A stretch of DNA of 60,042 nt from a virus, in IMG/VR virus record IMGVR_UViG_3300046028_006424, positions 1-60,042 of that record; one strand, 5' to 3'. Positions 15,681 through 37,747 of the stretch are shown piece by piece (within the stretch, counting starts at the first letter, position 1; each line of letters begins with the position of its first letter). The translations under genes and the position numbers were made by a program. The notes below the pieces were generated by a model that did not search any database, was not told where the DNA came from, and saw nothing but the letters and a program-made list of their open reading frames with translations.

Positions 15681-15785
15681 ATGAAACGTGCCGCCCGCGC
15701 TTTCCTCAAGAACCTCGCCATCCTGGCCGGAGTGAGAAATCGTGTGCCGTCTTCGTTCAACGCCTACCATGCCAGACTTCAGTGA
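15681..15785 (+). CDS. Small basic peptide, 34 aa
   Basis: ATG 15681 to TGA 15785 encodes a basic amphipathic helix followed by a short tail and overlaps the giant gene's start by 17 bases. It may serve translational coupling to the giant gene. Confidence 0.4.
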   Translation: MKRAARAFLKNLAILAGVRNRVPSSFNAYHARLQ

Positions 15786-18700
15786 AAACCGCCGCCGCAT
15801 TCGTACCCCTGGCGTAAACAGCCAGCAATCCCAGTCTCCTTTCATCTCTGACACACAGGTGCGGATGATGAACGCGCAACGAGGGCAGAGCATCATGGCC
15901 GACAAGATTGCCCGCGCCGGAGTTCCGTCTAGCTACACGCCGCGCAAATCCACATCAAGCCGCGACACGAACGGCGATGGCGTCATTTCATCTGGCGAAC
16001 GCGTGGACCACATCAAGCGCCCAGACGGCACGCTCGTTCCCGTGGCTGCCGCTACCGGCGACCCCTACCTTGTTCGGCCAAAGGGTGTAGATCACTACGT
16101 CTCCCCCCGCAGCGGCGATCGGTTCAAGGTTGACCCCGCTTCCCCGACTGGGTTGCTGTCCATCGGTAGCGCCCGTGACGAGGCGATGCGCAAGGCGGCA
16201 GAGAAGCAAGCCAAGGAGGACGCAGCCGCATCCAAGATCGAGGCAAAAGCTGTCACGGATGCCGACAAGGCCACCGCGAAGGCAGCCGCCGAGGCGAAGA
16301 AGCTCGCGAACGCCCAGGCTACGGACAAACTCATCGCAGAAGGCCGCGCCTACCATTTGTCCCGCGAGACTGGCACGCCGCTACCGGTGCAGACGGATGA
16401 AGAGTTCGCCAAGGCCAAGCAGGAGAAGATGGCAAAACTTCAGCAGGAGGCAGCCGCGAAGCCCTACAAGAAGCGCCTCGACGAGCTTCAGCTTGAACTC
16501 TCGAACCCTGACCTGCCCAAAGTCACAGACAAAGACCTTTCCGACGCCGACAACGAACGTGCTGCCGCTGAAACTGAACTCATGGCGCAGCGTGGAACCG
16601 ATGACCTCGCCACCCCGTTGACCGATGACGAGGTGAAAGCCGCGCTAGCCGATCCGTTGCGCAAGGATGCCGCGAACAAACTTCTCGCTGCACGCGAAAA
16701 AACCGCCGCGCTGCCGAAGCACGTCGCGAAGCGCCTGGCATTGGAGAAAGAAGCCTACGAGACAAAGAAGCGCATCCTTGACCCGCTAAAATACGCCGCC
16801 GACCTCAAGGCCGAAGCGCCGATGAAGTCAGACGACGAACTCAAGGCGCACGCCGACGAGATCAACAACCGCATCAAGGCCCGCGACGCCGATGTGAGGC
16901 AGGAAGCCGCCCGCATCACGCAGAAAGATGGCCAGTTCAGTCAACAATACGCGCTCACGAAGCAGAAGTACGACGAGGCGCTAACCGGTGGCGACCCGAA
17001 CGTTATCGGCACGCTTGGAGACTCCATGCGCGACCTTGAGCAACAGATGCTCCAATGGCAGGGTTCCAGTCAGGACCAGCGCGCTGCCGTCGATGCCGAG
17101 TCGGAGCAGATCAAGCATGATGCAAGTCATTTGCAAATCTTGGCCGATGAGCAGAAGAAGCGCGACGCCGTGCGGCAGGATCAATACACCGCCGCTCTCG
17201 ATGCCGCGCTCCCTAGCGCAGGCCAGAAGTACAAGTCCGTCACCGAGGACGCGTACAAGCGCCGCGAAGACCTGCGCGCCAAGTATCCCGACCCGTTCGC
17301 ACCTGAGGCAAAGGCTGCTTTTGACGCTCTGAACAAGGATTTCGAGGAGAAGGCCACGGCCATCACCAAGGAAGCAGATGCAGCCGCCCGCGCCAAGCAG
17401 CAGAAGCAGCAAGAACTCCGCGGCAAAGCTTTCGATGCCGCACAGGCCGCCAAAAGCGAGATCGCCAAGCAGCGCGCCGCCGATCCTGCCGCGCCGCACG
17501 GCCTCTCCGACCTTCTCTCAATCTCCAAATGGAAGAAGGCTTTCACGATGACACACGAAGAGCGTTCTGCTGAGGACTCTGCCCAGATGCAGAAGCAGAA
17601 GGCCATCATCGTCGAGCAGATGAAGAAGGCAGGACTGGACCCTGAGAACCCCGAGCATCAGACGTTCATGGAGGATGCTGAGAAGATGGACTGGTCGAAC
17701 GCCATCATTGCCAGCGACGAAAAGGGCGGGTGGGGCGGCAAGATGGGCGCAGAGCACGCCTTGAAGGGCATCACCAACATGCTGGCCAGCGGCAAAGACG
17801 ATTCCACCGCCGAGATCAGCCGCACGCTGTCTGATGGCACGCTGATGATCAACCCGCTTCTTGTGCAGGATGATGCTGGGTACAAGAAAGCCGTGGAGAA
17901 GGCCGACGCCAAGCCAGAAGCCAAGGCCGCCGCGCTGAAACAGCTGCCTGAGCTTCAAATCCAGCAGGCCGCCGCGCTCCTTCCTGCCTTGCTCGACACT
18001 CCGAAGGCAACCCCGGGCGAAAGCTACGAGTCATTCGAGAAGCGCCGCGAGACCGATCCCGAGCATGGGGAATGGTTCAAAGGACTGCGCGACGGTGAGA
18101 AGGTGCGCGAATACTTCAAAGAGCAGCAGAACCGGGGGAATCTGGTCAACGTTATTGACTACCTCGGCACCCAGGCCATGAGCGGCCTGCTCCAAGCCGG
18201 CACGATGGTTCTCGGCACCGCCGGTATCGCCACGGGCTTCATTCCCAAGGTTGGCGAGGCCATTTCACAGACTGCCGCCGAGGGCAGCAAGATCGCTTCG
18301 TCCATGACTGCCACCACCCGCCAGGAAACCGGAGCGGGCGGAGCACTGCGGACAGTCGGCCAGATCGCCAACATGGCCCCGCCGCTGGCGCTCGTCGCTC
18401 TGTCGGGCGGTCGCACCGCGCCAATGCTGGGTTTGTCCGGCATGCAGACGGCTGGATCCCAGTATGCCCAAGGCTATCAGGAGATGCGCGACAAAGGCGC
18501 CACGCACGCAGAAGCATGGAAGGCACAGGCGCTCCCCGCAGTGGCCTCCGGTATCGTTACGGCCGCACTGACGCACGCGGGCGGGCAGAAAGGTATCGAA
18601 GCACTGTATTCACCTGCTGGCCGTGCTGCCGCCAAGGAAGCGATCAAATCCTATTGGACCGCGCTCCCCAAAGCTTTCGTGAAGGAGGGCGGGCGTGAAT

Positions 18701-21700
18701 TCCTGTTCGAAGAACTGCCCGACGAACTGATTTCGACGATCATCGCGGCCAAGGCCAGCGGAGATGACCCAGCCAAGGCAGTTCACCAGCTGATCGACCA
18801 GCTTCCCGAGTTCGGAGCGGCCATCATGCTGCTTGGCGGAGCCGGTGGGGTGAAGGAAGCCATGCAGGAGAATAGAACAGCGAGCCAGCCGCCCGCCGAG
18901 GATCTTGCCGACGCTCCCACACCTTCCGTGTTGCCTGAGACAGAAGCCGCGAGAACCGCAGCGATTCAGGCATGGACCCCTGCCACGGTGCCAAACTCTG
19001 TGCTGAACGCCACCAAGGCCGCGCATGGCAAGGATGCCACCCCCGAGCAGCAAACCGACATGGCCCGCACCGCCGCGCACGCGCTGGTGGAGATTGCCGC
19101 CGGCGGAGATCCGCGCACGATGTCACCCGAAGTCCGCCGCGTGCTGGGCATCAAGATCAATTCCAAGGATGGCAGCATTGTGCCTGCTTCTGCCAACGTG
19201 ATGCCGCTGGTGGAGAGTGTGGCCGACCCCAAGGGGAACCATCAGCCCGTCATCACCGATGCCGCCCGCGCATGGCTGGCAAAGGAGGTGCCGACCGCTG
19301 CCGAAGCCATCAAGTCGTCCTATGCGGAGCGCGTGGAGCAGATCAAGAACCCGCCGAAGCCTGCGAAGAAACCGAAGGTAGAGAAAGCGCAGCCCGCCAA
19401 TGCAAGCCAAGAAATGTCGGCCACCAAGCTTCGTAAGCTGGCCCAGCAGAGGCAAAATGAGCTTTTATGGAAGAGGGACGGTAAAGCGGGCGGCACTGAT
19501 GAGATTGCAACTAGCCCGCGCCAATTATCCGCAGCGGAAAAGGCCGAACTTGAATCTTTAGACAAGCATCTTGCCGCAGATGACACCGAAGCGCTTGCAA
19601 AGCAGTACGGAGTAAAAATCAAGGCTCCGGTTGACGTGACATCACCGGCCACGACTCCAACTGAACCCGCTGCATCGCCAACTAAAGCGACTACTCCGCC
19701 AAGTAAGCCCGCCGAAAGCGTCAATTCAGGCCAAAGTAGCCCCAAACTCCCCCGCGAACTCGCTAGCGCCAAGCCTCGCTGGAAAGAATACGAACTGGAG
19801 TTTGAAAGCGACATTGACCGCGCCGCCTACATCGCCGCGCAGGAAAAGCCATCGAAGCGTGATGCTGACTACTTGGCGTTTGCCATGAAGCACGCGGGTT
19901 TGTCTGAGCCTGCCGTCCGTTCCCATGGGGCCGCAGTCCGCGCCTACATCAAAGCCAACACAGGCAGCGCCAAAAACAGCAAGACTGGACCGACCATCGC
20001 TATTCCATCGCAGATGGAGGCTAGGAAGCCTGCCGTTGAAATCTCCCCCCACTTGATTGAGACGGTTCCCGAGGATTTGGCACGCGCCCAGGAAGACCGC
20101 ACGGCCAACAATGAACGCTGGCAGCGGGCGGAGAAGTCAACCGACCCGATCCACGTCCTACAATTGCCAGGCGGCAAATACCGCGTGATCGACGGCCACC
20201 ACCGGCTGATTGACCGCCTCGCCAAGGGACAGCCCATCATGGCGACCATGGGAAAGGCCAAGACTCCACAAAAGGAGGAAAAACCACAGCCAACAGAGCA
20301 AGAAAAAGCTCCACGCGGAACAATTGAGCCGGTAGCCACCGCCCCCGAGGACCGCAAAGACGCAGCGCAAGGCTTGGCAGGCGGCGCTTTACTCGCTGCC
20401 GCTGAGAAGCAGTCGCAGGCCGTGGTATCGAAGATGCAGGGCGAAGAGAAGCAGCGGGCCATCATCGCCCGTGATGTCATCTTGGCCGTCATCCGCCGCT
20501 ACAATGGTCACTTGCCTATCGACCTTGCCAAGGGTGACAACGGTTTTTCGTTCAGCAACGAGGGCAAGGTGCTGATTAATCCCCGCAAGGCCATCATGGA
20601 CGTGGTAGAGGCCACAAGCAGCAATGCCGAAGCTAAGACCATGGCGGAGAAGTTGTTCGACCATGAGGTGATTCACCTGTTCGCGACGAGCAAGATTGAA
20701 CCCGCCCGCATCAAGGCCGTGTGGAACGACCTCCCGCAGGATGTCAAAAACGCCGTCATCAAAGCGTACTCCATCCGCCTTGTGGCATCCGGCCAGCCCG
20801 CCGTTGATTTGAACGACTTCGCCGGGGGCCATGAGTATTTCCGCGCCATGATCGAGGCCACGCGCACGGGTGTGCTCTCGGAGCAGGCCATCGGGCCAAA
20901 GCTGGCCGAGAAGTGGAAGCAGATCGTTCTCGACTTCCTCGCCATCCTAAAAGACCTCAAGAAGCAGTTCGCCAGCATCAAGTCGGAGGCCAAGCGCACC
21001 GAGCTTACCGCTCGCGTTGAAGCCATCCGCAAGGAAATCAGCGACGCCCTCGACCAGTTCGAGCGTTCCATCGCCCCCCAGGAAAGCAACAACCCCGGTA
21101 AAGAGCCTGCGCTGGCTACAAGTACCGGGGCTGTGAGCACGACCGAAACGTCTTCCGAGTCGCCGGTCAAGGGATCTACCGAAACCGTTGCTGCTGCTGA
21201 TGGGGTTACTTCTATCACAAATGCGAAAGAGTCAAGTGTCAAAAGTGAGAAGCAAGAAGCCATAAGGGCAGGTATCCCGGTGAAGGAGGTTACTACCCCT
21301 GCCGCTATCAAGGAGAAGAATCCAGCGGATGCTAAGGCGCTCCGTGAGATGAAGCGTTACCTGCTGGAAAAGATCGACGATGCCATTGCAACGGCTGGCG
21401 ACCCTTCGCAGCCCAAGGTGGTGATTGAAATCCCAGGAGACGGGACATTCACGCTGCACAACAACAAAAAGACGCTTCAGGAGTTTGCCAAGAAGGCCAA
21501 GAGTTTCCCGACATCGACGCCAGCGGCCACGGTGCCGAAGTTGACGGAAATCCGCCCTTCTGGTATCCCCGTGCTGAACAAAGGCAAAGTGACTACTGCC
21601 ACACTAGTAAAAGTGGCCGGCGCATTTGCCTCAACCGACGACTCGCGGCAAAGCATCATGCAAGTGGCCGACTTTGGCGACACGCTCGTTGCTACCGATG

Positions 21701-24700
21701 GCCGCATGATGTTCACGGCTCCCATCCCAGGGGAAGGAACCGAGGAAGACCCTGTTCTCTACTCCGCGAATGGTGCAAGACTTGGCCCACAGTCGAAGAA
21801 TGAGAAGTTTGGCAAATATCCAGGCTGGCAAGTCGCCATCCCGCAGGATGCGGAGGTTATTTACCGAGGACTCGACACGGGGCGCTTGTGGCAGATCCTC
21901 AAGCAGGCCAGCGCGGTGTACCGTGACACGAACTGGAAAGTCGTAAACGGCAAAGGGCAGACCGAAAACCAAACTCCTTACGTTCAAATCTTCATCAACC
22001 CCGACAATACCATTGGTGTGCGTGGGGAGGCCGACAACAGGACACAGGATGGTGGCGGCTACGTTTCAAATATCGACGTTTACGAGCATAACATGCAGCC
22101 AGGGGCGCAGATCGTTGGCCGTTTTGATGCTGACTTGTTCATGTCGGCGCTCGCGGCATTCCGTGCTATTGGCCAAGAAAAAGTTTCTATCAAAAGCACC
22201 GATGATAAGACGCAGGGAGCCATGATTCTTTCGTCCCGTGCTGCGGATGTCATTATCATGCGGGTGAAAGGCTTGTCTCCATCGGAGAAAGCCGCGCCGT
22301 CGCCAGCAGAAACCAAATCCCCAGCAATCTCCCCGCCCGAAATCAAGGATGATGCCCCATCCTTGAAATCTGAGGAACCCGCAGCACCGAAGGATGCCAT
22401 CGACAGCGCGCTGGACGAGGCATTCGGTGGCCTGTACGCGCCCCCGACTGGTAAAGGCACGCCGTTGGACCTCTCGGAGGCTATCAGCGCCGTGGAAGCA
22501 TTTTACGCAGATCCGAGCGAGCCGACCAACTGGCCCGAAGATTTGCAAGAAGACTTCGAGAAGGCTCCCTTGTCGCAGGCCGTTGAGAGCACCGATTTCG
22601 TGGCGTTTTACGAAGCACTGCCCGAGAATAAGCGCACCAAGGAGTTCACCCAGTGGTACGAGGAAGCCAAAGCCAACGAGACGGTGCAAAAGCGCCTCGA
22701 CGGCTTTTATTCCACGCTCAAAAAGAACCCGCAGGCAGCATTCACCGCCGACGAATGGGCCGCGCTGCAAGCCAGCCCGAACGAGGCAAGGCGCGACATC
22801 GAGACGCAAAAGCAAGTGACGGAGCGCGCCATTCAGCAACTCACCATTCCCGAGCGCAAAATCTATGACGACGACCTTGAAAACCTGAATGAGTTCTGGG
22901 AATCGGACAAGCCGCAGGAAATGGCGATGGCCGGATTCCTCCCGCAAGTGAAGGAGCGCGTTCAGTCCACGATCCAGCAAATCGAAGCCCTTGGCCGTCA
23001 CAAGTGGGACAAGACCATGCAGGCGTTCGACGAACTCGACGAGCCGCAGGTGCTATTCCAGAATCCCGGCCCGGTTGAGCAGGTGGCACTGCCCAAAGAC
23101 CGCCGCGACGCCATGATGAAGGCAGCGGGCGCACTGGTTGACCTTGGCTTGAAGACTCCCCAAGAACTCGCCGCCCGCCTCGACAAGCTGGCTCCAAACG
23201 GTGCGCTGCGCCAATACGCCCGCTCGTTCTGGCGTTTGATGACCGGATTTGACGCGGAACTGGACGAGAATCCAGACTGGCAGGCGATTTACGCGCCGAA
23301 GGTGGAAGCGCCGGCGACGGCAGAACCGGACGCAATTCGCGACCTGATTCTTTCCGATGACAGCCGCGCCAAAAAAGCGCAGGCCATGAAAAAGTTGTCA
23401 CAGGAGCGCGGCGAAACTATCAAGGAGACGCAGGAGTTCGTGGAATCTCGCCTTGTTCAGATCGCTGACGAGGTGGCACGCAATGGCGAGCCTGCAAAGG
23501 ATCGGTTCGACGAACTTGTCAGCATCTACGACAAGCAGCCCCTCTTTTCCGCTCGCACCAGCACAAGCATGGAGAACCAGGCGTATTCTACGCCAGCACC
23601 GATGGCGTTTGTTCTCGGTCACATGACCGGCGTGACTCCGCAGACTTCCGTTTACGATGCCACCGCAGGCAATGGCATGCTTGAAATCGGGGCCAATCTG
23701 GAGAACTCCGTCGCCAATGAGATCGACGAAACCCGCCGCACGGGGCTGCAACAGCTTGGAGTCGGCACGATCACGAACAAGGACGCGACATCGCCAGTTG
23801 GAGCGTTCAAGGACCGCGCAAAGGCCCAGGTGGTTCACTTGAACCCGCCCTTTGGCGGCATCCCGAACACGAACTTCGATGGATTCGGCATTCGCAAGCT
23901 AGAGCACATCATCAGCCTGCACGCCCTCAAGGAAGGCATGGCCGACAACGGCACCGCTGCTATCATCCTCGGTGCCACGATGCACAATCAAGAGCAGAGC
24001 AAGGGCGCACAGTGGGTGTTTGAGAACTACCTGTACGGGAACTACCACGTCATTGATAACTTCGAAGTTTCCGGCGACCTCTACGGCAACCAGGGCGCAA
24101 AATGGCCCGTTCGCATCCTCGTTATCGCTGGCCGTCGCGCCGTGCCTCTCACCAAGCAGGACTTGGCCCCCAAAACGGTTGACCGCCTCGAAACATGGGA
24201 TGATGTTTGGACACGCGCAGAGCGCACACGCCATGAAGTTGAACGCCAACGACAGATTCTCGGCACCGATGGACAATCCTCGGTACCTGCTGGTACTCCC
24301 ACAGGGAACGAAGGAACCCAAAAACCGGGATCAGTATCTAGCGGCCAACCTTCAAATGCTCCAACGCCTGCAAGCGGAGGCAAGCGAGGAGGAAATTCAG
24401 GAGGCAAATCAAGTTCTTCGACAACTGGAAACGGAAGTTCTGGACTGGATGCCTCAGGAACTTCTGAGCAATCCGCAGACGCTGGAACTGCTGACCAGTC
24501 TGACGCCAGTGGACGGAAGCCCACTTCAGGAGTGGAAGGCGGGCGAGGAAGCAGCACTAAAAGCCCCTCGAATGCTGGAAACGGAAGCCCGACAGATCGC
24601 GGAAACGCTGACGCTGGCGGGGCGGATCAGTCAAATGATCGAGGCGTAAAGCGCAAAAAGGCGGAGGCCACCGCAACGCAGGTTCCCTACGACCCTGCAT

Positions 24701-27700
24701 CAACGGGCAATCCATTTGAAACGCTGGTCCCTCGCGGCATTGGCGATGCGCTGCAATCCGCGCTCGCAGAAATCAAAGCCAACCGTGGCCCGATTGACCA
24801 GTACGTTGCCGACAGTCTCGATATGTCGGTTGCTGACCTGCAAAAAGCCATGGCTGCCGAGCAAATCGACGGCGTGGCGATGGCAATCTACCAGATGGAA
24901 ACGGGCGGGGCGCTTATCATCGGGGACGAAACCGGCATTGGCAAAGGCAGGCAGGCGGCATCGTTGATCCGGTTCGCCATCCTCAAGGGCAAGATTCCCG
25001 TGTTCTTCACCAAAGACCCGAAACTCTTCTCTGACATGTGGGGCGACCTGCGCGACATCGGTACGCAGATGTCAGAGCCAAATGCCTCGGCGTCAGATTT
25101 GTCTGTTCGCCCACTGGTGCTTGGCGATGCCGAGAAGGCGCAAATCAAGACGCCTGACAATGTGGTTGTACTGAAACCCGCTTCAAACGCTAAGCAGAGC
25201 AAAATCTTTGCCGCCGCCAAGGAAGAAGGATTCGCATCAACAGGCCACAACGCCATTTTTGCCACCTATTCCCAGATCCGCGACCCGAACGCCCGCCAGG
25301 AGTTCTTGGAGTGGCTGGCCGCGAATGACGATATCGTTGTCGTTCTCGATGAAGCTCACGAATCAGCAGGCGATGGAGAAACCTCCATGCAGGCTGCATT
25401 TATGATGGGCGGCACCATCAAACGCGGCAAAGGATCGGCCAAGACGGAGATTACCAAAAGCGGACTGTTGAACGGCCAAGGCGCCATGCACCCGCGTGGA
25501 GGTGTGTTGTACCTTTCCGCGACCTTTGCGAAGCGTCCCGACAACATGCCCGTGTATTACCGCACGGACCTGCGCCGAGGCGCTGATAACTTCAAGCAGG
25601 TGGTGGAAGCCATGACCAGGGGCGGCGTGGCGCTGCAACAGGCCATCACTGAGGCGCTGGCCGAGGCTGGTCAATACACCCGCCGCGAGCGTGACTTCAC
25701 CGGGGTAAGCTACTCCATGAAGCGTGTGGACGTGGGCGACGAAACGGAACTTGTCCGGCAGGTGGACGAAGTGACGAATGTTCTTTCTGAAATCTCTGCA
25801 TTCTCGAAGCGGATAAGTTCAATCGTTCAGGCTTCGACGGCGCAAAGCAATTCGCAAACGTCCATGACGGACTTTGCTTCCATCGTTCACAACCAAGTCG
25901 GGCAACTGCTGCTGGCCGCGAAGGCGGATGCGGTGGTCGATGAGGTGGTTGAAGCGCATAAGCGTGGTGAAAAGCCCATCGTGGCGCTGATGAACACCAT
26001 GGAGAGCTTTTTGCAGCAATACGTGGATGATTTGGACATCAAGCCCGGCCAACCGCTGAATTTGAACTGGTCAGCGCTGCTGGAATACGCACTATCAAGG
26101 ACGCTGCGAGCATCCGAGAAGCTGCCAAATGGCGACACGGAGATTTTCATCGTTGATCCCGCTGACTACAATTTGGCCGGAAGGTACAATGAAGTGCTGA
26201 AAGCCGCCCGTGCGGTATCGGTGGAGTTCCCAGTCAGCCCTATTGACTACATCATCCAGAAAGCCAAGGCAGGCGGTGTGAATGTGGGCGAACTCACGGG
26301 ACGCGAATCTGGCATCGACTACACCGATTTCAAGACCGGGGCGGGAACGTACCGCAAATTCAAGCGTGCGGACAAGAACACCCTCGTCAACACCTTCAAC
26401 AATGGCACTCTTGCGGGGCTGTTGCTGAATGCCAGCGGTTCCACAGGCTTGAGTATCCACGCCTCCGAGAAGTTCAAGGATCAGAAGCCACGGCACATGA
26501 TTATTGCCCAACCTGCGTTGGACATTAACGTGTTCATCCAGACTCTCGGGCGCATCAAACGCACGGGTATCGTGATGAATGGACGCTACCCAGGCGGGGA
26601 AGCCTACGGCGCTCGCTACTCGCATCTGACGTTGCCTCTCAACTCCGAAATGCGTCCCGCCATCATGGCGGCCCGCAAAATGAAGTCACTGAACGCCAAC
26701 ACCACGGGCGAAAGCGATTCGGCAGTGAAGATCGAGGCGGAAGACCTGATGAACCGGTTCGGCAATCAGGTGGTAGCCGAATACCTGTCCCGAATCCCTG
26801 AATTGCAGGGAGAACTCAACCTTGATGTCACGGAACGCGAAGACGGCACCGTGGAAGTGCCGCAGGACATCGCCCGCAAGTTCACTGGCAGGATGGCGCT
26901 GCAAACCAACGCCCGCCAGGGCGAAGCGTACGCGGAAATCATTGCAGACTACCGCCGCGCCGTGGAGCAAGCCAAGGTCACGGGAGACTATGACCTTGAA
27001 ATCATCATTCACGATGACTGGGACGCTACCAAGGCGAGCTCAGAGCAGATCGTTGCCGGTACCGACGAAAGCTCTATTTTCACATCCAGCGTGAACGTTC
27101 AGGGATGGGACATGACCGATACCCGGCCCACCCCATCCGGCGCTGACATGCTGGCGGAGTTCACCAAGGAAAACGGCAGCAATCAGCAGCTAGACACCCG
27201 CTGGCAGTCTTTTTCCCGCGAGGTGAACGAACGTCTCGACGGTCTGGAAAAGCGCACCCAAGCAAGACTGGGTGAGGCGCAGGCCACATTGGCAGGACTG
27301 GCCGAAGCAGATCCAGGGTACAAGGCTGCGGATCTTGCAGTTTCCATGCTTTTGCGCCAACAGGGCAACATTGCAGTCAAAAAGGCCCGCTGGCGCGACA
27401 CGCAGCGCCGCCTTGATGACATCATCGACGAAGCCGGGAAGCCCGTCATGCTGGAGAACGCCGAGACGAACGAGATGGATCACGGCATGATGACGCAGAT
27501 CAAGTTCCCCGACATCACGGGGCAACTGCGCATTGCTCCGAGTGCGTTCAAGATGACGTACCTTCTCAATCGCCCAGGTGGCCGCATCTACCCTTCGTTG
27601 GCAAGTTTCAAGGCGGACGGCTACACACAGGCCCGTTCTCAGTATTATCTGGAAGACATGACCGGCGACCGTGGAGGCCGCAGAGAGCGCCGCACCATCC

Positions 27701-30700
27701 TTGTCGGCAGCCCAATTCGTGCCTATGGCGCGACGGGCGGCAAGGGCAAGGTGGTTCGCTTCAAATCGCGTGACGGAGAACTCATCACGGGAATTATGAT
27801 GCCTCGTAGTTGGGGAATCTCAAATCTCGTCGAAGATCCACGCAAAGAACTGGCGGACGCAGCCGCCGTTGTTCGCTACATGCAGGAAAACCCGTATTCC
27901 GCTGGCTACGTGGAAAGCGGCGAGTCGGTGCGAATCCATCACAACTACGGAAGCTATCGGATCAGCGCCCCCTCGGCCCGCCGCACTGGTGGTGACATCT
28001 TCCTTGATGAAGAACTCCGCGACATCGTGGGAGACTTTAGCAAGAACGGCCAGCGCATGACTGCCGACCTCAACAGCAGCGATATTGAGCGTGCAGCCGC
28101 CCGCGTGGTGCAGATCACCGGTAAACGGTTCAAAGGCCAGGATTTGAACAAGGTACGGAAGGCAAACGGCACCGCAGAGGACAGCGCCGAATCCAAGACT
28201 GTCCGCCCAAAAAGCGCGCTCAAGGAAGCGGCAACGAAGGAATGGGACAAGCATATCGAAAAAGGCGGGTCACTCGGCCAGCCCCCCGCAGGCCGCGACG
28301 ACCCCAACAGCATCCGCAACGCGAAGCGCATCCGCTACCGTGGCCTGTTTAAGAACCAAGAATCAAGCAATGGCCGCGCAATCACCGAGAACCTGAACAA
28401 TCGCGCTCGCGCCGGCCAGATCATCCGCAGTTTCGAGCGCGATTGGGCACCGTTCTTCACCTACATCGACGACACGGCCCCCGAGGGTAAGCGCAAGGAG
28501 GCCCTGAAAAAGTTGGTGAACAAGTTCGCGATGTCTGACTCCCCTGAGAGCAAGTCGCTCTACAAGTGGTACTCGGAACTCCCCCTTGGCGAGCTTGTCC
28601 CCGAGGACACCGAGCGTGTGAAGGAAGCAAAAGAGCTGCTGCCGTATCTTGAGAATCTGACCATTTCCGCACCGACCGTAACGCACGTCATGCCCGATGG
28701 TGCGCAGTTGACCAGCGAAGGCGTGCAAACGCTCATGGCGAACCCTCGCGCCTACCACGGCACGCCCCACAAGGTGGACAAGTTCAGCATGGACAAGATC
28801 GGAACCGGAGAAGGCAATCAAGCTTATGGCTGGGGTCTGTACTTTGCTGAGTCCCGAATGGTGGGCATCGAATACAGGGACACCCTTGGAAACATGCGGC
28901 TGAAAATGCCCGATGGTGGCTATGTTGACGAGAAGCTGAGCACTTCAGGTGCAAAAAGAATCCTGCGCGAAGCGCGGTCCTACTGGATTGAAAAGAAAAC
29001 TCTGAAACAGTTCAGGAGTGATCTCGAAATGCAGCGAGATCGAGCACTGGTCTGGGCGAAACAAGGGAATTCAGCTGAAAGCAATCAGCAGTTCGCCGCT
29101 GATGCAGATGAGATTCTGAAACTTACGGATGATGCAGTTCTAGAAAGCACAGGGAACCTCTATACCGTCGATCTGTTGCCAGACGAGGAGGATTTTCTCG
29201 ACTGGGACAAGCCATTCCACGCACAAAGCCAGAAGGTTCAAGACGCCATCCGTGCATACTTGCCGACCAGCACGTCTATCCTCAAAAATCGTGACGATAT
29301 TGGCGAATTCGAAGGACAGCGCATCTACACATGGATCTCCAACAGCGGCGACAAAAAAGAGTGCAGCAAAGCCATGCTGGCAGCTGGCATTCCTGGCATT
29401 CGGTATCTTGATGGAAACAGCCGTTCGTTTGCTGGTTTCTGGGCTGAATCCAAACCCGATGAATTCGGCAGGTGGTGGGTCACGAACGGACGCGAAAGGG
29501 TATACACCAACTCGCAGAGCGATGCAGCGGCAGAGGTCAAGAAACGGAATTCGGATAACCGTGGCACCTACAACTATGTGCTCTTCGATGAAAGCCTTGT
29601 CCGCATCATCGCTGAAAACGGGAATCCTGTGGATGCCGCTCTGGGTGCGCCTCCTTCTTCCTACCGCTCCCCTGTCAGCATGCTCGAAGAAGCCGTTGGC
29701 AGACTCGGAGGCACCGCGCCAGCGAACAAGCCCGCCGGCCTCAGCAGCATGTTCAACCCAAAGGCGGGCCGTCCTGCCACCGGGGAGCGCACGCTGTTCG
29801 AGACGCCAAAGAATCCAGGGCCCGCATTCCAGACGAAAGACCTGCACGCCGCCTATCAGCGCGCCATCCGCAGCACCTCTACGATCTGGGCGAGCATCCG
29901 CAGCGTGTTCGATGAGGCGAAAAAGCTGAATCCATCCCTGAAAAAGGTCGATTTCATGGCCCAGTTGAAGGCGGCCTACTACTCGAATCTCGTTGGCATC
30001 GAGCCGTCCGAGCAATCGAGCACAGTCAATGCCGCCGGTGACTTCACCATGCGCGACTCTCTCGGCGTGGTTCACACAAACATGGTGTTCATGCCGACCA
30101 CCGAGGCCGAAATGATCGAAGCAGCGGAGCGCGACACAAGCTCGACTCCTGACCAGATCCTGAACGACTGGGCAAATTCTGAACTTTCGCAGCCGCCATC
30201 CCCTCCAATTGACCCGACCGTAGCCAACCAAGGCGACACCAGAGACAATCGGGAAGCGTTTGCGCGCATCCGAGGCTCTTACATTGCCGAGGAGATCACC
30301 CAGGCCAATTTCGACGAGATCCGCGAGAAAGTGCAAAGCCAGATAGACGAGGACGAAGAGGGGATGCTCGACAACATCCAATGGAAGGTTGCCAACGACG
30401 AGCAGCTGAGCCTTGAGGAGGAAATCGCCCGCCGAATGCTCGCCAACACCTTGCGCACCCGTGGTGTGCGGGAAAATGACCCTTCCCTTGTGGTGCTGGC
30501 AGATTCTCTGTGGGGCCAGGACATCCGCGACGCCACCGAGACCGCCCGCAAGCTCGCCGTGCGCGTCGACCAACTGCAATCACCGCAGGAACGCCTCGAT
30601 GCAGCCATGGGCCGCATCATCGCCCCAAACCGGGCAAAACTGCGCGAACGCCTCACGACTGCGTGGACGCCATCGGCCAAACGCCGGGAGATTGCACGCC

Positions 30701-33309
30701 TCGAAGGAGAGATTGCAAAGGCCGCGACAGCAGCCAGCCGAGCAAGCCTTGAAAGGACACTTGCGGAAGCCAAGGCCCGCATGGATCACAACGACCTCAT
30801 CGACAAGATGGCCGCTGAGAACAACGAGGCCGTGGACAAGATTTTGAAGCGTGTCGGCCTGACACAGGCAGACTTGACCATGACGCCCGATGACCGGCAC
30901 TCGCTGCAAACCGCCGTGCTGGACCTGCCGCCGGTGAAAAACGCCATGGTCACACTCTCCCCCGAGGTGCAAAAGGCCATCGAAATGAGCGTGCGCGGCT
31001 ACACGGACGCCGCAATCGCCCGTGACACTGGCCTGAAAACCGATGTTGTGGAGCGTGTCACCGAGCATTTCCGCAACGTGACTGCCAAGCAGGCCATTTC
31101 TCAGGCTGTCACCATCGGTAAGCAAACCCTCGGCGGATTCATCGAAGGCGGGAAGAACCTGATTCGCTGGATTCTTAAAGCGCCGCCCGCGCCGCTGCAA
31201 AACATGGTCAACATGGGGGTGAAGAACGCCGCCAACGTGCAGGCCCAGGTTCAGGCCATCTTAAACGCTGCCATTCCGACCCGCCGCAACCGCAACCGCC
31301 GCGCCCTGCATGCCGCCGTGGTGAACGGGAAGAAGGGCCAAAAGATCACCGTCTTTGTCCCCTACGACCCGACCGACTGGCAGCAGGTTTACCGTGTGGC
31401 CCGCGAACTCTCCACCCGTGACGCCACGGCGATGAACAAGGTGTACGAGTACTGGATCAACGGCATCCTGTCCGGCCCGCAGACGCATGTGGTCAACACC
31501 GCTTCAAATACCCTCTCGACGCTCTGGCACTACGGCCCGCAGTGGTTCGCCTCCGCGACCGTCAACACCATCATTCGCGACCCCAACTCGACGCAGTGGG
31601 GCGAGTTCCCGAAGGTGTGGGCAGGCTTTATGAAGGGCATTCAGCCCGCCATGGCAAACTTTGCGCTCGCATGGCGCACCGAGGCCGACCCCGTGGAGCA
31701 CACGTACCTCGACCGCCCGGTGACAGTTATGTTCAACGACGCCTCCCTTGAAAAAGCAGGTGGTGGCAAAGCCCCGTCCATTGGTGGCATTCCTGGCCGA
31801 ATCATTCGCTCGCCTGGCCGTTTCCTCGTCGCCATGGATGCGTTCGCCAAGACACTCATCATGCACGGTGAAGTGTCCGCCTACGCCTACCGACTTGGCA
31901 AACAGCGCGGCCTAGTCGGCGTGGCGCTCGAAAACTTCATGGCTTCGCAGATCGCGACCCATGGCTCTGAATCGTGGGAGCACTCCCTGCAAACGGCCAA
32001 GGAACTCACGTTCCAAGACGAGAATGACATTACGAAGGCCGTGGAGAAGGTCACGAATGCCGCCAAGCAGGCGAAGTACATCGGCCTCCTGTTCAAGTTC
32101 CTGCTCCCATTCGTCCGCACGCCGACCAACATCTACCGCACAGGCATGCGGAAAGCGGGCGGAAGCGCCGGTTTGCTGCTCTACCGTCTCGGCAAGGCCG
32201 GGTTCTATAAGATCCACAAGGGCGAAAACTTCTTCGACACCTATTCGAAGGGTAAGATGGTACAGGACGTGTCTGAATCGGTCATGGCTGGCGCTCTTTG
32301 GATGCTGGCTATGTCACTGTCCGAAGGCGACCCCGAGGACGAAAAGAAGGCGTTTGAGATCACTGGCGCACGCCCCTACGGCGTGGCAAATGCCGGGGAA
32401 CGTGCCAGCCAGCTACGGCAGGAGGGCGGTTCAAACCTCATCATCATTCGCAAGAACCCTGTCACGGGCGAGAAACTGGCCGATCCGATCCGCATCCCAT
32501 ACGGGCGATACGAGCCGATGGCGCTGACCATTGGCACGCTGGTGGATGCCGCCCGCGAGTTCAAGGAGTGGTCACGGCTGCCCGGTGGCGAGCAGACCGC
32601 CGACAAGCTGGCAGGCACGATCATGCAGCACATCGTTGCCCAGGCGCAGGACAAGACGTTCCTGCAAGGCATCTCGTCCGTTGCCCAGTTGGCCGAAGAC
32701 TTGACGCAGAACCGGCTTTCCCTTGGCGATTCCGTGGCAAAGCAGTTTGTCAACGGTGTGGTGCCGAACCTCATCCGCCAGACGCTTCGCCAAGCGCGGC
32801 CTGAACTCATCGACTCCAAGAAACCGCTGGAGGTGCTTGGATCGAAAACACTCGGCGGTGCGTTGTCCGAAGGGCAAGCCAAGATCAACGAGGCAGGGAA
32901 ACCCGTCACTCGCCGCGGCGGACCGGTGGGCAATATTCTGTTCCCCGGTGCCACCGAGCCGAGTAAGGCGCTGTTTGATACCGCGTTGAAGGACTGGAAC
33001 GCCCGCCATCCCAGCGAGAAGTGGAACCCTGACCCCATCACGAAGGGCGACTGGTTCATCTATGACCCAGCCATGGGCAGCAAAAAGGGCAAGTTCCCGC
33101 TCAAAGATTCGCGCCAGATTTCCCTGTTCGAGAAGAACGTGGGCATCATGTTCGACAAGCTGGCCGCGCAAGCCTTGGCGAAAACCGGCTACCGTCCCGG
33201 CGTCAAAGTCACCCCCGACCAGATCGAAGCCATCAAAGACGCTCGAACTGCCGCTATCAAACGTGTTCGTTCTATGCCACCATCAGCCTTTACTGTGAAG
33301 ACCAAATGA
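15769..33309 (+). CDS. Giant polyvalent protein (about 5,846 aa): metallopeptidase, clamp-like, N6-methyltransferase, SF2 helicase, ADP-ribosyltransferase
   Basis: One uninterrupted frame, start taken at ATG 15769. An EF-hand-like loop lies at residues 66-77 (D-x-N-x-D-G-x-I-x3-E) within a charged coiled-coil region to about 780, then a Gly/Ala-rich hydrophobic segment (about 798-945). A ParB-like IDGHHR motif is near 1473; a zinc peptidase HEVIH lies at 1632-1636. A clamp-like region (about 1945-2170) contains LVATDGRMMF. An N6-adenine methyltransferase follows (DATAGNGM near 2630, NPPF 2692-2695). After a Gly/Ser linker comes a strawberry-notch-type helicase (GDETGIGKGR 3052-3061, DEAH 3194-3197, QTLGRIKR 3591-3598). 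An ADP-ribosyltransferase starts YHGTPH at 4329 with GWGLYFAES. Conserved polyvalent segments follow from about 5200 (NGILSGPQTHVVN; PFVRTPTN). By analogy with P1 DarB it is probably packaged and ejected. Confidence 0.85.
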   Translation: MPDFSENRRRIRTPGVNSQQSQSPFISDTQVRMMNAQRGQSIMADKIARAGVPSSYTPRKSTSSRDTNGDGVISSGERVDHIKRPDGTLVPVAAATGDPYLVRPKGVDHYVSPRSGDRFKVDPASPTGLLSIGSARDEAMRKAAEKQAKEDAAASKIEAKAVTDADKATAKAAAEAKKLANAQATDKLIAEGRAYHLSRETGTPLPVQTDEEFAKAKQEKMAKLQQEAAAKPYKKRLDELQLELSNPDLPKVTDKDLSDADNERAAAETELMAQRGTDDLATPLTDDEVKAALADPLRKDAANKLLAAREKTAALPKHVAKRLALEKEAYETKKRILDPLKYAADLKAEAPMKSDDELKAHADEINNRIKARDADVRQEAARITQKDGQFSQQYALTKQKYDEALTGGDPNVIGTLGDSMRDLEQQMLQWQGSSQDQRAAVDAESEQIKHDASHLQILADEQKKRDAVRQDQYTAALDAALPSAGQKYKSVTEDAYKRREDLRAKYPDPFAPEAKAAFDALNKDFEEKATAITKEADAAARAKQQKQQELRGKAFDAAQAAKSEIAKQRAADPAAPHGLSDLLSISKWKKAFTMTHEERSAEDSAQMQKQKAIIVEQMKKAGLDPENPEHQTFMEDAEKMDWSNAIIASDEKGGWGGKMGAEHALKGITNMLASGKDDSTAEISRTLSDGTLMINPLLVQDDAGYKKAVEKADAKPEAKAAALKQLPELQIQQAAALLPALLDTPKATPGESYESFEKRRETDPEHGEWFKGLRDGEKVREYFKEQQNRGNLVNVIDYLGTQAMSGLLQAGTMVLGTAGIATGFIPKVGEAISQTAAEGSKIASSMTATTRQETGAGGALRTVGQIANMAPPLALVALSGGRTAPMLGLSGMQTAGSQYAQGYQEMRDKGATHAEAWKAQALPAVASGIVTAALTHAGGQKGIEALYSPAGRAAAKEAIKSYWTALPKAFVKEGGREFLFEELPDELISTIIAAKASGDDPAKAVHQLIDQLPEFGAAIMLLGGAGGVKEAMQENRTASQPPAEDLADAPTPSVLPETEAARTAAIQAWTPATVPNSVLNATKAAHGKDATPEQQTDMARTAAHALVEIAAGGDPRTMSPEVRRVLGIKINSKDGSIVPASANVMPLVESVADPKGNHQPVITDAARAWLAKEVPTAAEAIKSSYAERVEQIKNPPKPAKKPKVEKAQPANASQEMSATKLRKLAQQRQNELLWKRDGKAGGTDEIATSPRQLSAAEKAELESLDKHLAADDTEALAKQYGVKIKAPVDVTSPATTPTEPAASPTKATTPPSKPAESVNSGQSSPKLPRELASAKPRWKEYELEFESDIDRAAYIAAQEKPSKRDADYLAFAMKHAGLSEPAVRSHGAAVRAYIKANTGSAKNSKTGPTIAIPSQMEARKPAVEISPHLIETVPEDLARAQEDRTANNERWQRAEKSTDPIHVLQLPGGKYRVIDGHHRLIDRLAKGQPIMATMGKAKTPQKEEKPQPTEQEKAPRGTIEPVATAPEDRKDAAQGLAGGALLAAAEKQSQAVVSKMQGEEKQRAIIARDVILAVIRRYNGHLPIDLAKGDNGFSFSNEGKVLINPRKAIMDVVEATSSNAEAKTMAEKLFDHEVIHLFATSKIEPARIKAVWNDLPQDVKNAVIKAYSIRLVASGQPAVDLNDFAGGHEYFRAMIEATRTGVLSEQAIGPKLAEKWKQIVLDFLAILKDLKKQFASIKSEAKRTELTARVEAIRKEISDALDQFERSIAPQESNNPGKEPALATSTGAVSTTETSSESPVKGSTETVAAADGVTSITNAKESSVKSEKQEAIRAGIPVKEVTTPAAIKEKNPADAKALREMKRYLLEKIDDAIATAGDPSQPKVVIEIPGDGTFTLHNNKKTLQEFAKKAKSFPTSTPAATVPKLTEIRPSGIPVLNKGKVTTATLVKVAGAFASTDDSRQSIMQVADFGDTLVATDGRMMFTAPIPGEGTEEDPVLYSANGARLGPQSKNEKFGKYPGWQVAIPQDAEVIYRGLDTGRLWQILKQASAVYRDTNWKVVNGKGQTENQTPYVQIFINPDNTIGVRGEADNRTQDGGGYVSNIDVYEHNMQPGAQIVGRFDADLFMSALAAFRAIGQEKVSIKSTDDKTQGAMILSSRAADVIIMRVKGLSPSEKAAPSPAETKSPAISPPEIKDDAPSLKSEEPAAPKDAIDSALDEAFGGLYAPPTGKGTPLDLSEAISAVEAFYADPSEPTNWPEDLQEDFEKAPLSQAVESTDFVAFYEALPENKRTKEFTQWYEEAKANETVQKRLDGFYSTLKKNPQAAFTADEWAALQASPNEARRDIETQKQVTERAIQQLTIPERKIYDDDLENLNEFWESDKPQEMAMAGFLPQVKERVQSTIQQIEALGRHKWDKTMQAFDELDEPQVLFQNPGPVEQVALPKDRRDAMMKAAGALVDLGLKTPQELAARLDKLAPNGALRQYARSFWRLMTGFDAELDENPDWQAIYAPKVEAPATAEPDAIRDLILSDDSRAKKAQAMKKLSQERGETIKETQEFVESRLVQIADEVARNGEPAKDRFDELVSIYDKQPLFSARTSTSMENQAYSTPAPMAFVLGHMTGVTPQTSVYDATAGNGMLEIGANLENSVANEIDETRRTGLQQLGVGTITNKDATSPVGAFKDRAKAQVVHLNPPFGGIPNTNFDGFGIRKLEHIISLHALKEGMADNGTAAIILGATMHNQEQSKGAQWVFENYLYGNYHVIDNFEVSGDLYGNQGAKWPVRILVIAGRRAVPLTKQDLAPKTVDRLETWDDVWTRAERTRHEVERQRQILGTDGQSSVPAGTPTGNEGTQKPGSVSSGQPSNAPTPASGGKRGGNSGGKSSSSTTGNGSSGLDASGTSEQSADAGTADQSDASGRKPTSGVEGGRGSSTKSPSNAGNGSPTDRGNADAGGADQSNDRGVKRKKAEATATQVPYDPASTGNPFETLVPRGIGDALQSALAEIKANRGPIDQYVADSLDMSVADLQKAMAAEQIDGVAMAIYQMETGGALIIGDETGIGKGRQAASLIRFAILKGKIPVFFTKDPKLFSDMWGDLRDIGTQMSEPNASASDLSVRPLVLGDAEKAQIKTPDNVVVLKPASNAKQSKIFAAAKEEGFASTGHNAIFATYSQIRDPNARQEFLEWLAANDDIVVVLDEAHESAGDGETSMQAAFMMGGTIKRGKGSAKTEITKSGLLNGQGAMHPRGGVLYLSATFAKRPDNMPVYYRTDLRRGADNFKQVVEAMTRGGVALQQAITEALAEAGQYTRRERDFTGVSYSMKRVDVGDETELVRQVDEVTNVLSEISAFSKRISSIVQASTAQSNSQTSMTDFASIVHNQVGQLLLAAKADAVVDEVVEAHKRGEKPIVALMNTMESFLQQYVDDLDIKPGQPLNLNWSALLEYALSRTLRASEKLPNGDTEIFIVDPADYNLAGRYNEVLKAARAVSVEFPVSPIDYIIQKAKAGGVNVGELTGRESGIDYTDFKTGAGTYRKFKRADKNTLVNTFNNGTLAGLLLNASGSTGLSIHASEKFKDQKPRHMIIAQPALDINVFIQTLGRIKRTGIVMNGRYPGGEAYGARYSHLTLPLNSEMRPAIMAARKMKSLNANTTGESDSAVKIEAEDLMNRFGNQVVAEYLSRIPELQGELNLDVTEREDGTVEVPQDIARKFTGRMALQTNARQGEAYAEIIADYRRAVEQAKVTGDYDLEIIIHDDWDATKASSEQIVAGTDESSIFTSSVNVQGWDMTDTRPTPSGADMLAEFTKENGSNQQLDTRWQSFSREVNERLDGLEKRTQARLGEAQATLAGLAEADPGYKAADLAVSMLLRQQGNIAVKKARWRDTQRRLDDIIDEAGKPVMLENAETNEMDHGMMTQIKFPDITGQLRIAPSAFKMTYLLNRPGGRIYPSLASFKADGYTQARSQYYLEDMTGDRGGRRERRTILVGSPIRAYGATGGKGKVVRFKSRDGELITGIMMPRSWGISNLVEDPRKELADAAAVVRYMQENPYSAGYVESGESVRIHHNYGSYRISAPSARRTGGDIFLDEELRDIVGDFSKNGQRMTADLNSSDIERAAARVVQITGKRFKGQDLNKVRKANGTAEDSAESKTVRPKSALKEAATKEWDKHIEKGGSLGQPPAGRDDPNSIRNAKRIRYRGLFKNQESSNGRAITENLNNRARAGQIIRSFERDWAPFFTYIDDTAPEGKRKEALKKLVNKFAMSDSPESKSLYKWYSELPLGELVPEDTERVKEAKELLPYLENLTISAPTVTHVMPDGAQLTSEGVQTLMANPRAYHGTPHKVDKFSMDKIGTGEGNQAYGWGLYFAESRMVGIEYRDTLGNMRLKMPDGGYVDEKLSTSGAKRILREARSYWIEKKTLKQFRSDLEMQRDRALVWAKQGNSAESNQQFAADADEILKLTDDAVLESTGNLYTVDLLPDEEDFLDWDKPFHAQSQKVQDAIRAYLPTSTSILKNRDDIGEFEGQRIYTWISNSGDKKECSKAMLAAGIPGIRYLDGNSRSFAGFWAESKPDEFGRWWVTNGRERVYTNSQSDAAAEVKKRNSDNRGTYNYVLFDESLVRIIAENGNPVDAALGAPPSSYRSPVSMLEEAVGRLGGTAPANKPAGLSSMFNPKAGRPATGERTLFETPKNPGPAFQTKDLHAAYQRAIRSTSTIWASIRSVFDEAKKLNPSLKKVDFMAQLKAAYYSNLVGIEPSEQSSTVNAAGDFTMRDSLGVVHTNMVFMPTTEAEMIEAAERDTSSTPDQILNDWANSELSQPPSPPIDPTVANQGDTRDNREAFARIRGSYIAEEITQANFDEIREKVQSQIDEDEEGMLDNIQWKVANDEQLSLEEEIARRMLANTLRTRGVRENDPSLVVLADSLWGQDIRDATETARKLAVRVDQLQSPQERLDAAMGRIIAPNRAKLRERLTTAWTPSAKRREIARLEGEIAKAATAASRASLERTLAEAKARMDHNDLIDKMAAENNEAVDKILKRVGLTQADLTMTPDDRHSLQTAVLDLPPVKNAMVTLSPEVQKAIEMSVRGYTDAAIARDTGLKTDVVERVTEHFRNVTAKQAISQAVTIGKQTLGGFIEGGKNLIRWILKAPPAPLQNMVNMGVKNAANVQAQVQAILNAAIPTRRNRNRRALHAAVVNGKKGQKITVFVPYDPTDWQQVYRVARELSTRDATAMNKVYEYWINGILSGPQTHVVNTASNTLSTLWHYGPQWFASATVNTIIRDPNSTQWGEFPKVWAGFMKGIQPAMANFALAWRTEADPVEHTYLDRPVTVMFNDASLEKAGGGKAPSIGGIPGRIIRSPGRFLVAMDAFAKTLIMHGEVSAYAYRLGKQRGLVGVALENFMASQIATHGSESWEHSLQTAKELTFQDENDITKAVEKVTNAAKQAKYIGLLFKFLLPFVRTPTNIYRTGMRKAGGSAGLLLYRLGKAGFYKIHKGENFFDTYSKGKMVQDVSESVMAGALWMLAMSLSEGDPEDEKKAFEITGARPYGVANAGERASQLRQEGGSNLIIIRKNPVTGEKLADPIRIPYGRYEPMALTIGTLVDAAREFKEWSRLPGGEQTADKLAGTIMQHIVAQAQDKTFLQGISSVAQLAEDLTQNRLSLGDSVAKQFVNGVVPNLIRQTLRQARPELIDSKKPLEVLGSKTLGGALSEGQAKINEAGKPVTRRGGPVGNILFPGATEPSKALFDTALKDWNARHPSEKWNPDPITKGDWFIYDPAMGSKKGKFPLKDSRQISLFEKNVGIMFDKLAAQALAKTGYRPGVKVTPDQIEAIKDARTAAIKRVRSMPPSAFTVKTK
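24269..24649 (+). CDS. Embedded +1-frame ORF, 126-aa helical protein
   Basis: Within the giant gene's low-complexity linker the +1 frame encodes, from ATG 24269 to TAA 24649, a sequence with ordinary protein character: NRDQYLAANLQMLQRLQ, a Glu/Ala/Leu helix, DWMPQELL, LLTSLTP and a terminal helix ISQMIEA. Over the same bases the giant frame is Gly/Ser/Thr/Asn repeats built mainly from GGA codons, as if constrained by the other frame. This suggests either an internal gene or a former domain frame. No Shine-Dalgarno site is seen. Confidence 0.4.
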   Translation: MDNPRYLLVLPQGTKEPKNRDQYLAANLQMLQRLQAEASEEEIQEANQVLRQLETEVLDWMPQELLSNPQTLELLTSLTPVDGSPLQEWKAGEEAALKAPRMLETEARQIAETLTLAGRISQMIEA

Positions 33310-35468: not shown

Positions 35469-35767
35469 AAGCCCAAGCACCTACCGAAGCAGAGAAGGAG
35501 ATGCGCGCCCGAGTCGTTCAAGCGTGCGTTTTGATGGACGATGACTCGAATCTACGCCTCCTGCGTGACGACTACCTCGACGGCGAACAGGAGAACTTGG
35601 CCGCGCAGGCATTGACCCTTTTGGAGCAAGCCGTCACGCTCGAACAGTTTGCCCTCGCCAAATCCTGCGCCATCGCCCGTGTAAAAGTGCGTGCATTTCA
35701 GCAAAGTCTGGTGAAAATGGCGCAAGACAGCAAGAAAGATTCTGAAAAACCCACTCCTGCGCCATGA
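35465..35767 (+). CDS. Small helical protein, 100 aa
   Basis: Helical, Glu/Leu/Ala-rich protein between portal and decoration gene, overlapping both by ATGA. It may be a head-completion or assembly chaperone; nothing more can be said. Confidence 0.6.
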   Translation: MKAQAPTEAEKEMRARVVQACVLMDDDSNLRLLRDDYLDGEQENLAAQALTLLEQAVTLEQFALAKSCAIARVKVRAFQQSLVKMAQDSKKDSEKPTPAP

Positions 35768-36234
35768 CCTCCACTCCGACCATTGCAACAATCTTGGCAC
35801 AGGAAGACGGCCCCGTTGAGGAACGGCACTATCAGCGCCGGATGTTGGAAGCCGTGGGAGGCGTTGCCGCTACCTTGGCTGCTGGAACAAACACCATCGG
35901 CGCAACCAAGGACGCAGGCCCGTCGTGGACCGTGGCACGGCTTTACACGCCCATCACCACCGCCACGACCACCGACATCACGGCGGCTCCGACCAGCGGC
36001 CAAAAGATCGTGCTGGACGACTGCCTGATTTCCTGTGACGCGGCCTGTGCGGTGTCCATCGTGGAAGAAACCAGCGGCACGGTGTTTGCCAAGGTCTTCA
36101 TGCCTGCCAACGGCACGGTTCAAATCACCCTGCGCGACGCCCTCAAGGCGGCGGTGGCAAACAAGAAGCTGCGGGCGATCACGTCTGCGGCGGTGAATTG
36201 TTCCATCACTGCGTGCTATCACTCGGAGGCGTAA
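35764..36234 (+). CDS. Putative capsid decoration protein, 156 aa
   Basis: After a helical N-terminus (EERHYQRRMLEAVGG) the protein is Thr/Ala-rich beta structure with regularly spaced short strands and two Cys near 87-94, typical of small phage virion decoration or head-fibre proteins. A similar beta-rich protein is encoded at 45500 after the capsid gene. Confidence 0.5.
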   Translation: MTSTPTIATILAQEDGPVEERHYQRRMLEAVGGVAATLAAGTNTIGATKDAGPSWTVARLYTPITTATTTDITAAPTSGQKIVLDDCLISCDAACAVSIVEETSGTVFAKVFMPANGTVQITLRDALKAAVANKKLRAITSAAVNCSITACYHSEA

Positions 36235-36237
36235 CCT

Positions 36238-37071: not shown

Positions 37072-37487
37072 ACGAAGATGTTTACATTCCTTCTGCGAAG
37101 GCGGAGGAGCTGACGGCGGCGCTGTGGGAGCTGTCTGATCCGAACCCGACACGGGGGACGACGGGGATGTTTCCGGGGGTGAAGGAGCGGGATGGATCGA
37201 TGTGCCTGCTGGTGCGGCAGGACTACGGTATTCCGGTGCATGGGACAGCGGTGCTGGGGAGGATCGGGGGGATCTTGCAGCCGTGGATTGACGATGAGCT
37301 GCTGCCGGCTGAGACGAATCAGAGACTGAGCGATTACATCATCTCGATGCGCGGACAGAGACTGGTGGTTTACCAGGCGTTTCCGGCGCTGTTCAAGCTG
37401 CGGGATGCGGGGAACCCGGAAGGGCTGGGGCGGACGAAGACGGAGATGATTGAAGAGGGAAGGCTGGAGGGGCCGAAGATGCCATGA
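37068..37487 (+). CDS. Hypothetical protein, 139 aa, GC-rich composition
   Basis: Coding uses many GGG, CTG, GCG and AGG codons, unlike the GGC/CGC-rich neighbours, suggesting later acquisition. The protein is mixed alpha/beta with a central RQDYGIPVHGTAVLGRIGGILQ stretch. It is coupled to both neighbours. Unknown function. Confidence 0.6.
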   Translation: MNEDVYIPSAKAEELTAALWELSDPNPTRGTTGMFPGVKERDGSMCLLVRQDYGIPVHGTAVLGRIGGILQPWIDDELLPAETNQRLSDYIISMRGQRLVVYQAFPALFKLRDAGNPEGLGRTKTEMIEEGRLEGPKMP

Positions 37488-37747
37488 GCGCGGCGGAACA
37501 GCTGACGGAGGTGCTGGATGCGAAGTTCCGGACGCCGGTGAGGTGGCTGATCGCGCTGGTGGTGTTTGTCATCATCGGGACGACAGCGGTGGTGACGATC
37601 GCCTATGACGTGCGGCAGATTGCCATCGACGCGAGACGGGATGCGGTGGAGGCGAAGACCACGGCGGCGGATCTGCGGGCGACGGTGATCGGGCATGAGA
37701 GGGACATTGCGGTGCTGAAAAGTCAACTGGGGAGGGGTGGGGAATAA
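37484..37747 (+). CDS. Single-pass membrane protein with coiled coil (holin/spanin-like candidate)
   Basis: Residues 19-40 form one hydrophobic helix (WLIALVVFVIIGTTAVVTIAY) followed by a charged coiled coil to the C-terminus. This topology suits an inner-membrane lysis accessory protein, but no family signature is visible. Shares the atypical codon use of the preceding gene. Confidence 0.5.
   Translation: MSAAEQLTEVLDAKFRTPVRWLIALVVFVIIGTTAVVTIAYDVRQIAIDARRDAVEAKTTAADLRATVIGHERDIAVLKSQLGRGGE

Follow-up and report, generated by a model that had tools for sequence, protein, structure and literature searches.

The DNA analysed here is a complete 60,042-nucleotide virus record (IMG/VR IMGVR_UViG_3300046028_006424, hereafter "the window"), and it encodes at 15769..33309, on the plus strand, a giant polyvalent protein of 5,846 amino acids and 637 kDa that contains a single cysteine. 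The preferred reading of this protein, to which a probability of about 0.7 is assigned, is that it is carried in the virion and ejected, and that it combines a conserved chassis with a replaceable antirestriction cassette and an ADP-ribosyltransferase. In this view the phage builds a protein, probably injected, in which enzyme cassettes can be exchanged on a conserved chassis, and a sliding clamp is suggested as one of the delivered parts.

The reading frame extends from an ATG at 15769 to 33309 through 5,846 codons with no stop in frame; all five alternative frames are full of stops over this interval (63-256 each), with a maximum open run of 479 codons, which confirms the single frame of about 5,846 codons proposed in an earlier, sequence-only reading of this DNA. 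The longest possible start is a GTG at 15742, and the ATG start gives a product beginning MPDFSE, resembling the MPVTFS with which the giant protein of a sister phage begins. The giant's ATG lies within a 34-codon frame at 15681-15785 that was recognised by eye, and this overlap might couple translation of the giant to an upstream message. At the other end, the giant's stop codon overlaps by 4 bp the portal protein gene (33306..35468, plus strand; phrog_1216, 1.7e-9), so that the proposed position directly before the portal also stands. The giant gene, which occupies 29% of the approximately 60-kb genome, is encoded among virion genes, since the portal, the major head protein (43862-45418) and the large subunit of terminase (52196-54544, minus strand) are all found in the window. 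Other genes of the window encode a 989-residue tail-fibre-like protein, an endolysin, an exonuclease VIII-like protein and a DnaC-like loader, and a homing-endonuclease-like gene lies immediately upstream of the terminase gene on the minus strand (54541-55014). No separate tape measure was recognised in the window genome, and the product of 38226-38726 resembles a tail assembly chaperone, which makes a short-tailed virion less than certain. Positions 1-127 of the window are identical to positions 59916-60042, and it is from this exact overlap of the ends that the record is taken to be a complete genome; because 127 bp is a common assembler word length, the overlap suggests circularity and no true terminal repeat, and the genome is probably circularly permuted.

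All of the motifs named in the sequence-only reading were located in the giant, with support that varies by motif and is strong for the methyltransferase and the helicase (every feature of the giant given below lies on the plus strand). The N6-adenine DNA methyltransferase, which had been proposed on the strength of its NPPF motif, is found at 23476..24168 (residues ~2570-2800), with YSTP at residue 2606, a TAGNG motif and NPPFGG at residue 2692; its match in PHROGs is weak (E about 3e-3). A Gly/Ser-rich linker (24256..24648) connects it to a helicase whose N-terminal half (24844..25743; GDETGIGKGR at residue 3052, DEAH at residue 3194) matches the Pfam family AAA_34 at 2e-23, or 83.1 bits against a cut-off of 27, and whose C-terminal half (26239..27003; GRIKRTG at residue 3594) matches Helicase_C_4 at 4e-12, or 46.8 bits against a cut-off of 30.5. 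These two families form the Strawberry-notch pair, and with both halves above the Pfam cut-offs the suggested strawberry-notch-type helicase is substantiated. The motifs of the methyltransferase and the helicase are invariant in five homologues, four of which are 30-76% identical to the window, and the invariance of catalytic motifs over five homologues that have diverged in this way points to selection for activity. The closest relative of this methyltransferase-helicase dyad is 73-78% identical (locus L002, whose frame is cut at its 5' end), and beyond the dyad it has little in common with the window giant, apart from 25% identity in the C-terminus.

The comparison that separates the dyad from the remainder of the protein is provided by the sister phage (IMG/VR contig 3300042905_003262, loci L167-L172), the only other phage found with the clamp region described below. 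Its genome is equal in size to that of the window phage, and its giant, of ~5,470 residues, is encoded on the minus strand at 29670-46079 of the contig. The two giants match over window residues 141-1425 (31% identity), 1489-1845 (40%), 1833-2304 (42%), part of 2429-2576 (46%) and 4818-5834 (54%), so that they have in common the N-terminus, the HExxH region, the clamp and the C-terminus. The methyltransferase and helicase have no counterpart in the sister giant; AAA_34 finds nothing in the sister contig, and the dyad profile has no match in the examined part of that contig. The order of the parts differs as well, with the clamp located downstream of the LPKDRRDAMMKAA segment in the sister and upstream of the LPKDRRDAMMKAA segment in the window giant. 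Since the sister has kept the chassis without the dyad, the dyad behaves as a cassette, and since L002 shares the dyad and little else, the dyad and the chassis have separate histories. It also follows from the sister's lack of a dyad that methylation cannot be a protection on which every member of the lineage depends.

The remaining segments can be characterized to differing degrees. A Gly/Ala-rich segment at residues 660-1080 (17746..19008), 32% identical to the sister giant, is a possible membrane or channel segment; the giant has no strongly hydrophobic 19-residue segment, so that the membrane assignment is a guess. The ParB-like region (residues ~1405-1500; 19981..20268) has a DGHHR at 20191 (residue 1475), with a chance expectation of 0.0002 in the giant. 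Because the region matches no Pfam or library model and DGHHR was not found in the sister phage, it is rated as a motif only, and the earlier proposal holds at that level and not beyond it. The candidate zincin-type metallopeptidase (residues 1561-1760; 20449..21048) has HEVIH at 20662 (residue 1632), followed by HEYFRAMIEA. An HExxH is expected by chance 0.06 times in a protein of the giant's composition, and the region has no Pfam match; the HExxH motif reported previously is nevertheless corroborated by its retention in the sister phage, where the region is 45% identical, the motif reads HELIH, and the HEY(F/Y)RAM(I/L)EA that follows downstream, with its conserved E, is common to both phages. 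The predicted ADP-ribosyltransferase, of the ART-PolyVal type (28747..29262; YHGTPH at residue 4329), falls under the curated Pfam cut-off at 3.5e-4; tblastn aligns its region with two phage records (35-37% identity, about 1e-15), which gives the earlier assignment weak support. The conserved C-terminal module that aligns with both the sister and L002 (30220..33270) has the position taken by LPD38 in other family members, and no Pfam match to LPD38 was obtained in the window protein.

The least expected part of the giant is the clamp-like region, on which the sequence-only reading had merely touched. The putative DnaN-like sliding-clamp domain spans residues 1925-2170 (21541..22278) and is 54-56% identical to that of the sister phage. 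When a DnaN profile compiled from sequences of bacterial genomes and of three phage clamps was compared in hhalign with a profile of two sequences, the window and sister giants over residues 1833-2304, the score was 42.7 (probability 61%, E 8e-5), against 28.0 (E 0.004) for the trimmed clamp region by itself. As controls, the columns of the trimmed alignment were shuffled twenty times and all windows of the giant outside the clamp region were scored; none exceeded 18.7, and windows of the giant that overlap the clamp region scored up to 29.3. The DnaN hallmark G-FP-x-VIP (G-(F/Y)P-IP) falls within the alignment, the giant's version being GKYPGWQVAIP. AlphaFold models of the region are of low confidence (mean pLDDT 41 and 51); two beta-alpha-beta-beta-beta units can be made out in their better-modelled part. 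For both models Foldseek ranks sliding clamps first, with B. subtilis DnaN at the top and low TM-scores. Pfam DNA_pol3_beta has no match in the region, and a sequence search of the PDB returned no sliding clamp. With hhalign scores far above the controls and sliding clamps at the top of the structural matches, the region probably derives from DnaN, and it likely has a clamp-derived fold, as judged from profile comparison and low-confidence models.

No homologue of this clamp other than that of the sister phage was found in IMG/VR or in phage records. Three phages with dyad giants (L195, L196 and L197) have stand-alone DnaN-like genes of 257, 466 and 216 residues, which are separate short frames outside their giants; such genes are possible sources of the fused clamp. 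A virion-delivered sliding clamp has no example in the literature searched, and the text of Iyer et al. 2017 (PMC5512222) makes no mention of a sliding-clamp domain, so that the clamp seems to be new for the polyvalent protein class. It is put forward tentatively, as a proposal that is more doubtful than probable, that the giant ejected protein brings a sliding clamp of the phage's own into the cell, where the clamp ring would tether to the incoming genome whichever cassette the chassis bears, or recruit the host replication machinery to that genome.

The window giant is not exceptional in its kind, as dozens of viral contigs encode giant relatives. Searching IMG/VR by alignment yielded 175 loci, and 80 of these were retained; complete frames among the relatives range from 2,285 to 5,951 amino acids, and one relative (L018) is split into shorter frames. 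Record size was considered as a special feature of the window giant and was rejected, given relatives of 5,951 residues (L012) and at least 6,604 residues (L086, a 5'-open frame whose start lies beyond the locus) and a known plasmid member of the polyvalent class with 12,242 residues (PMC5512222). LPD38 is present in 13 of the 31 relatives examined, and the N- and C-terminal parts of the relatives contain the further polyvalent domains ART-PolyVal, LPD39, ddrB-ParB, InPase, PBECR2 and SLT. The portal is the next gene after the giant in the Bacteroides phage BS-TP4 and in four viral contigs (L056, L080, L082 and L086), and in other relatives the giant is the last gene of the structural module. 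The signature polyvalent domains of the relatives and the order of giant and portal place the window protein in the class of phage polyvalent proteins of Iyer et al. 2017 (PMC5512222), whose members combine multiple domains that act as effectors or on DNA in one polypeptide, often longer than 2,000 residues; the designation as a giant polyvalent protein is in this way sustained by its length, AAA_34, Helicase_C_4, the N6-adenine methyltransferase motifs and ART-PolyVal.

A further property of the family is its depletion in cysteine. The window and sister giants have one cysteine each, and the 77 viral giants together have 107 in 305,377 residues, compared with 2,769 expected from the rate in neighbouring genes; 49 of the 77 have none at all. 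The p-values of this depletion overstate the independent evidence, because the 77 include near-duplicates and share common ancestry. Homologues of the dyad in bacterial genomes (frames under 2,000 residues) have a median cysteine content of 0.48%. Among proteins proven to be ejected, N4 gp50, T7 gp15 and gp16, and P22 gp7, gp16 and gp20 contain no cysteine; N4 gp51 and gp52 and the DarB-like giants of BcepMigl and SopranoGao likewise have none, T7 gp14 has one, and P1 DarB has nine although it is in the virion. The genes directly upstream of the giants (L007-L086) contain 16 cysteines in 31,506 residues. A rationale for such depletion, passage through the tail and into a disulphide-forming periplasm, was given for N4-like polymerases by Ceyssens et al. 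2010 (PMC3715699), and a comparable argument has been made for phage StenR_269 (PMC10747016); in the literature found, the idea does not extend beyond N4-like virion RNA polymerases and their presumed look-alikes. The near-absence of cysteine across the family is independent support for ejection. The major capsid proteins of the window phage and of N4 are also cysteine-free, so the depletion fits any particle-internal protein and is no proof of ejection. As a simple sequence signature, the cysteine test may nonetheless serve to find ejected proteins in uncultured phages.

The preferred reading, in which injection is the best explanation, agrees on this point with the ejection into the cell that the sequence-only reading had proposed. 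According to it, the giant would be produced late, in step with the portal, and packed in the head, from which it would cross the tail and the periplasm unfolded, nearly cysteine-free and alongside the DNA. The chassis, consisting of the N-terminal segment, the HExxH peptidase, the sliding-clamp domain and the C-terminal module, would provide for packaging, passage, processing and DNA tethering. The cassette of N6-adenine methyltransferase and Strawberry-notch translocase would then methylate the incoming phage DNA ahead of host restriction, and the ADP-ribosyltransferase would act on a host target. The late-operon position is also compatible with an enzyme that acts late inside the cell, methylating progeny DNA before packaging and not being ejected, and DNA methylated in this manner would arrive in the next host already protected, with no need for a carried protein. 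This alternative is nevertheless considered unlikely, because cysteine is near-absent in the phage family and higher in the bacterial homologues, because an architectural relative has been identified as a virion protein by mass spectrometry (PMC9144972), and because a polyvalent architecture adjoins the portal.

Conservation between the window and sister giants, which takes in the N-terminus, the HExxH region, the clamp and the C-terminus and leaves out the dyad, is what would be expected of a mainly structural ejection or channel protein that carries its enzymatic domains as passengers or in partly inactive form; the invariant catalytic motifs of the methyltransferase and helicase are difficult to reconcile with this possibility, which is judged quite improbable. 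It is very improbable that the frame encodes a tape measure or that faulty assembly has joined several genes into one. The chaperone-like gene downstream and the want of a separate tape measure would suit a tape-measure role, but the giant lies before the portal, contains enzyme domains and would imply a tail of more than 800 nm, and an artefact is contradicted by independent contigs, and by the isolated phage BS-TP4, in which relatives of similar length also occupy one frame.

Of the known systems with which the window giant may be compared, the one invoked by the sequence-only reading is DarB of phage P1. P1 DarB is located in the virion head and protects against type I restriction. Like the window giant, DarB (2,255 residues) has a methyltransferase followed by a superfamily II helicase, and its gene is beside that of the portal; its location in the head is documented (PMC9024508). 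The helicase motifs of DarB are GLGKT and DEGH, of the SWI2/SNF2 type, whereas the window helicase is of the Strawberry-notch type, and the methyltransferase motif is NVPF in DarB and NPPF in the window giant. A direct BLASTP comparison gave no significant match and no alignment of the helicases, and orthology with DarB was rejected on this result and on the difference in helicase family. The dyad family profile matches the DarB methyltransferase alone, at residues 90-190, with a marginal 5.9 bits. The likeness to DarB thus survives in the order of methyltransferase and helicase, and fails in the helicase family, while the methyltransferases seem barely related. Judged by these sequences, the giant is an analogue of DarB and no homologue along its length, and a DarB-like function may reasonably be suggested by analogy.

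The DarB-like giants of Bcep22-like phages, one of which (4,515 residues) was found in purified virions by mass spectrometry (PMC9144972), exceed 4,500 residues in JC1 gp69, which is virion-borne, and in BcepMigl gp69, which is cysteine-free. Their dyad matches that of P1 DarB, which the Strawberry-notch dyad of the window does not, and their gene is at the end of the structural module, ahead of the lysis genes, whereas the window giant precedes the portal. The virion RNA polymerase of N4 is also a giant, cysteine-free protein, counted as polyvalent, of which a few copies are ejected with the DNA; at 3,500 residues it is smaller than the window giant, as the sequence-only reading had stated, and it has an RNA polymerase core in place of the methyltransferase-helicase dyad. 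A further comparison is with gp3 of BS-TP4, a phage isolated on Bacteroides salyersiae (PQ571277; 5,391 residues, four cysteines), which is about 28-31% identical over the dyad region and is likewise encoded directly before the portal; the other strand of that genome has a terminase-like gene. It has no BLASTP match to the N- and C-terminal regions of the window giant and no match to the clamp profile, and no publication on BS-TP4 was found.

The polyvalent proteins of Iyer et al. resemble the window giant in being large multi-domain proteins encoded beside virion genes, with a methyltransferase-helicase dyad and an ADP-ribosyltransferase; their zincin MPTase domain, common in the class but not universal, has a candidate counterpart in the HExxH region of the window giant, and Strawberry-notch-type helicases have been noted among them "in a few instances" (PMC5512222). 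The window giant differs from them in its clamp-like domain and in that LPD38 was not detected, LPD domains being optional in the class. What it adds to this known class is a probable sliding-clamp domain, an example of a swapped cassette and a depletion of cysteine that extends across the family.
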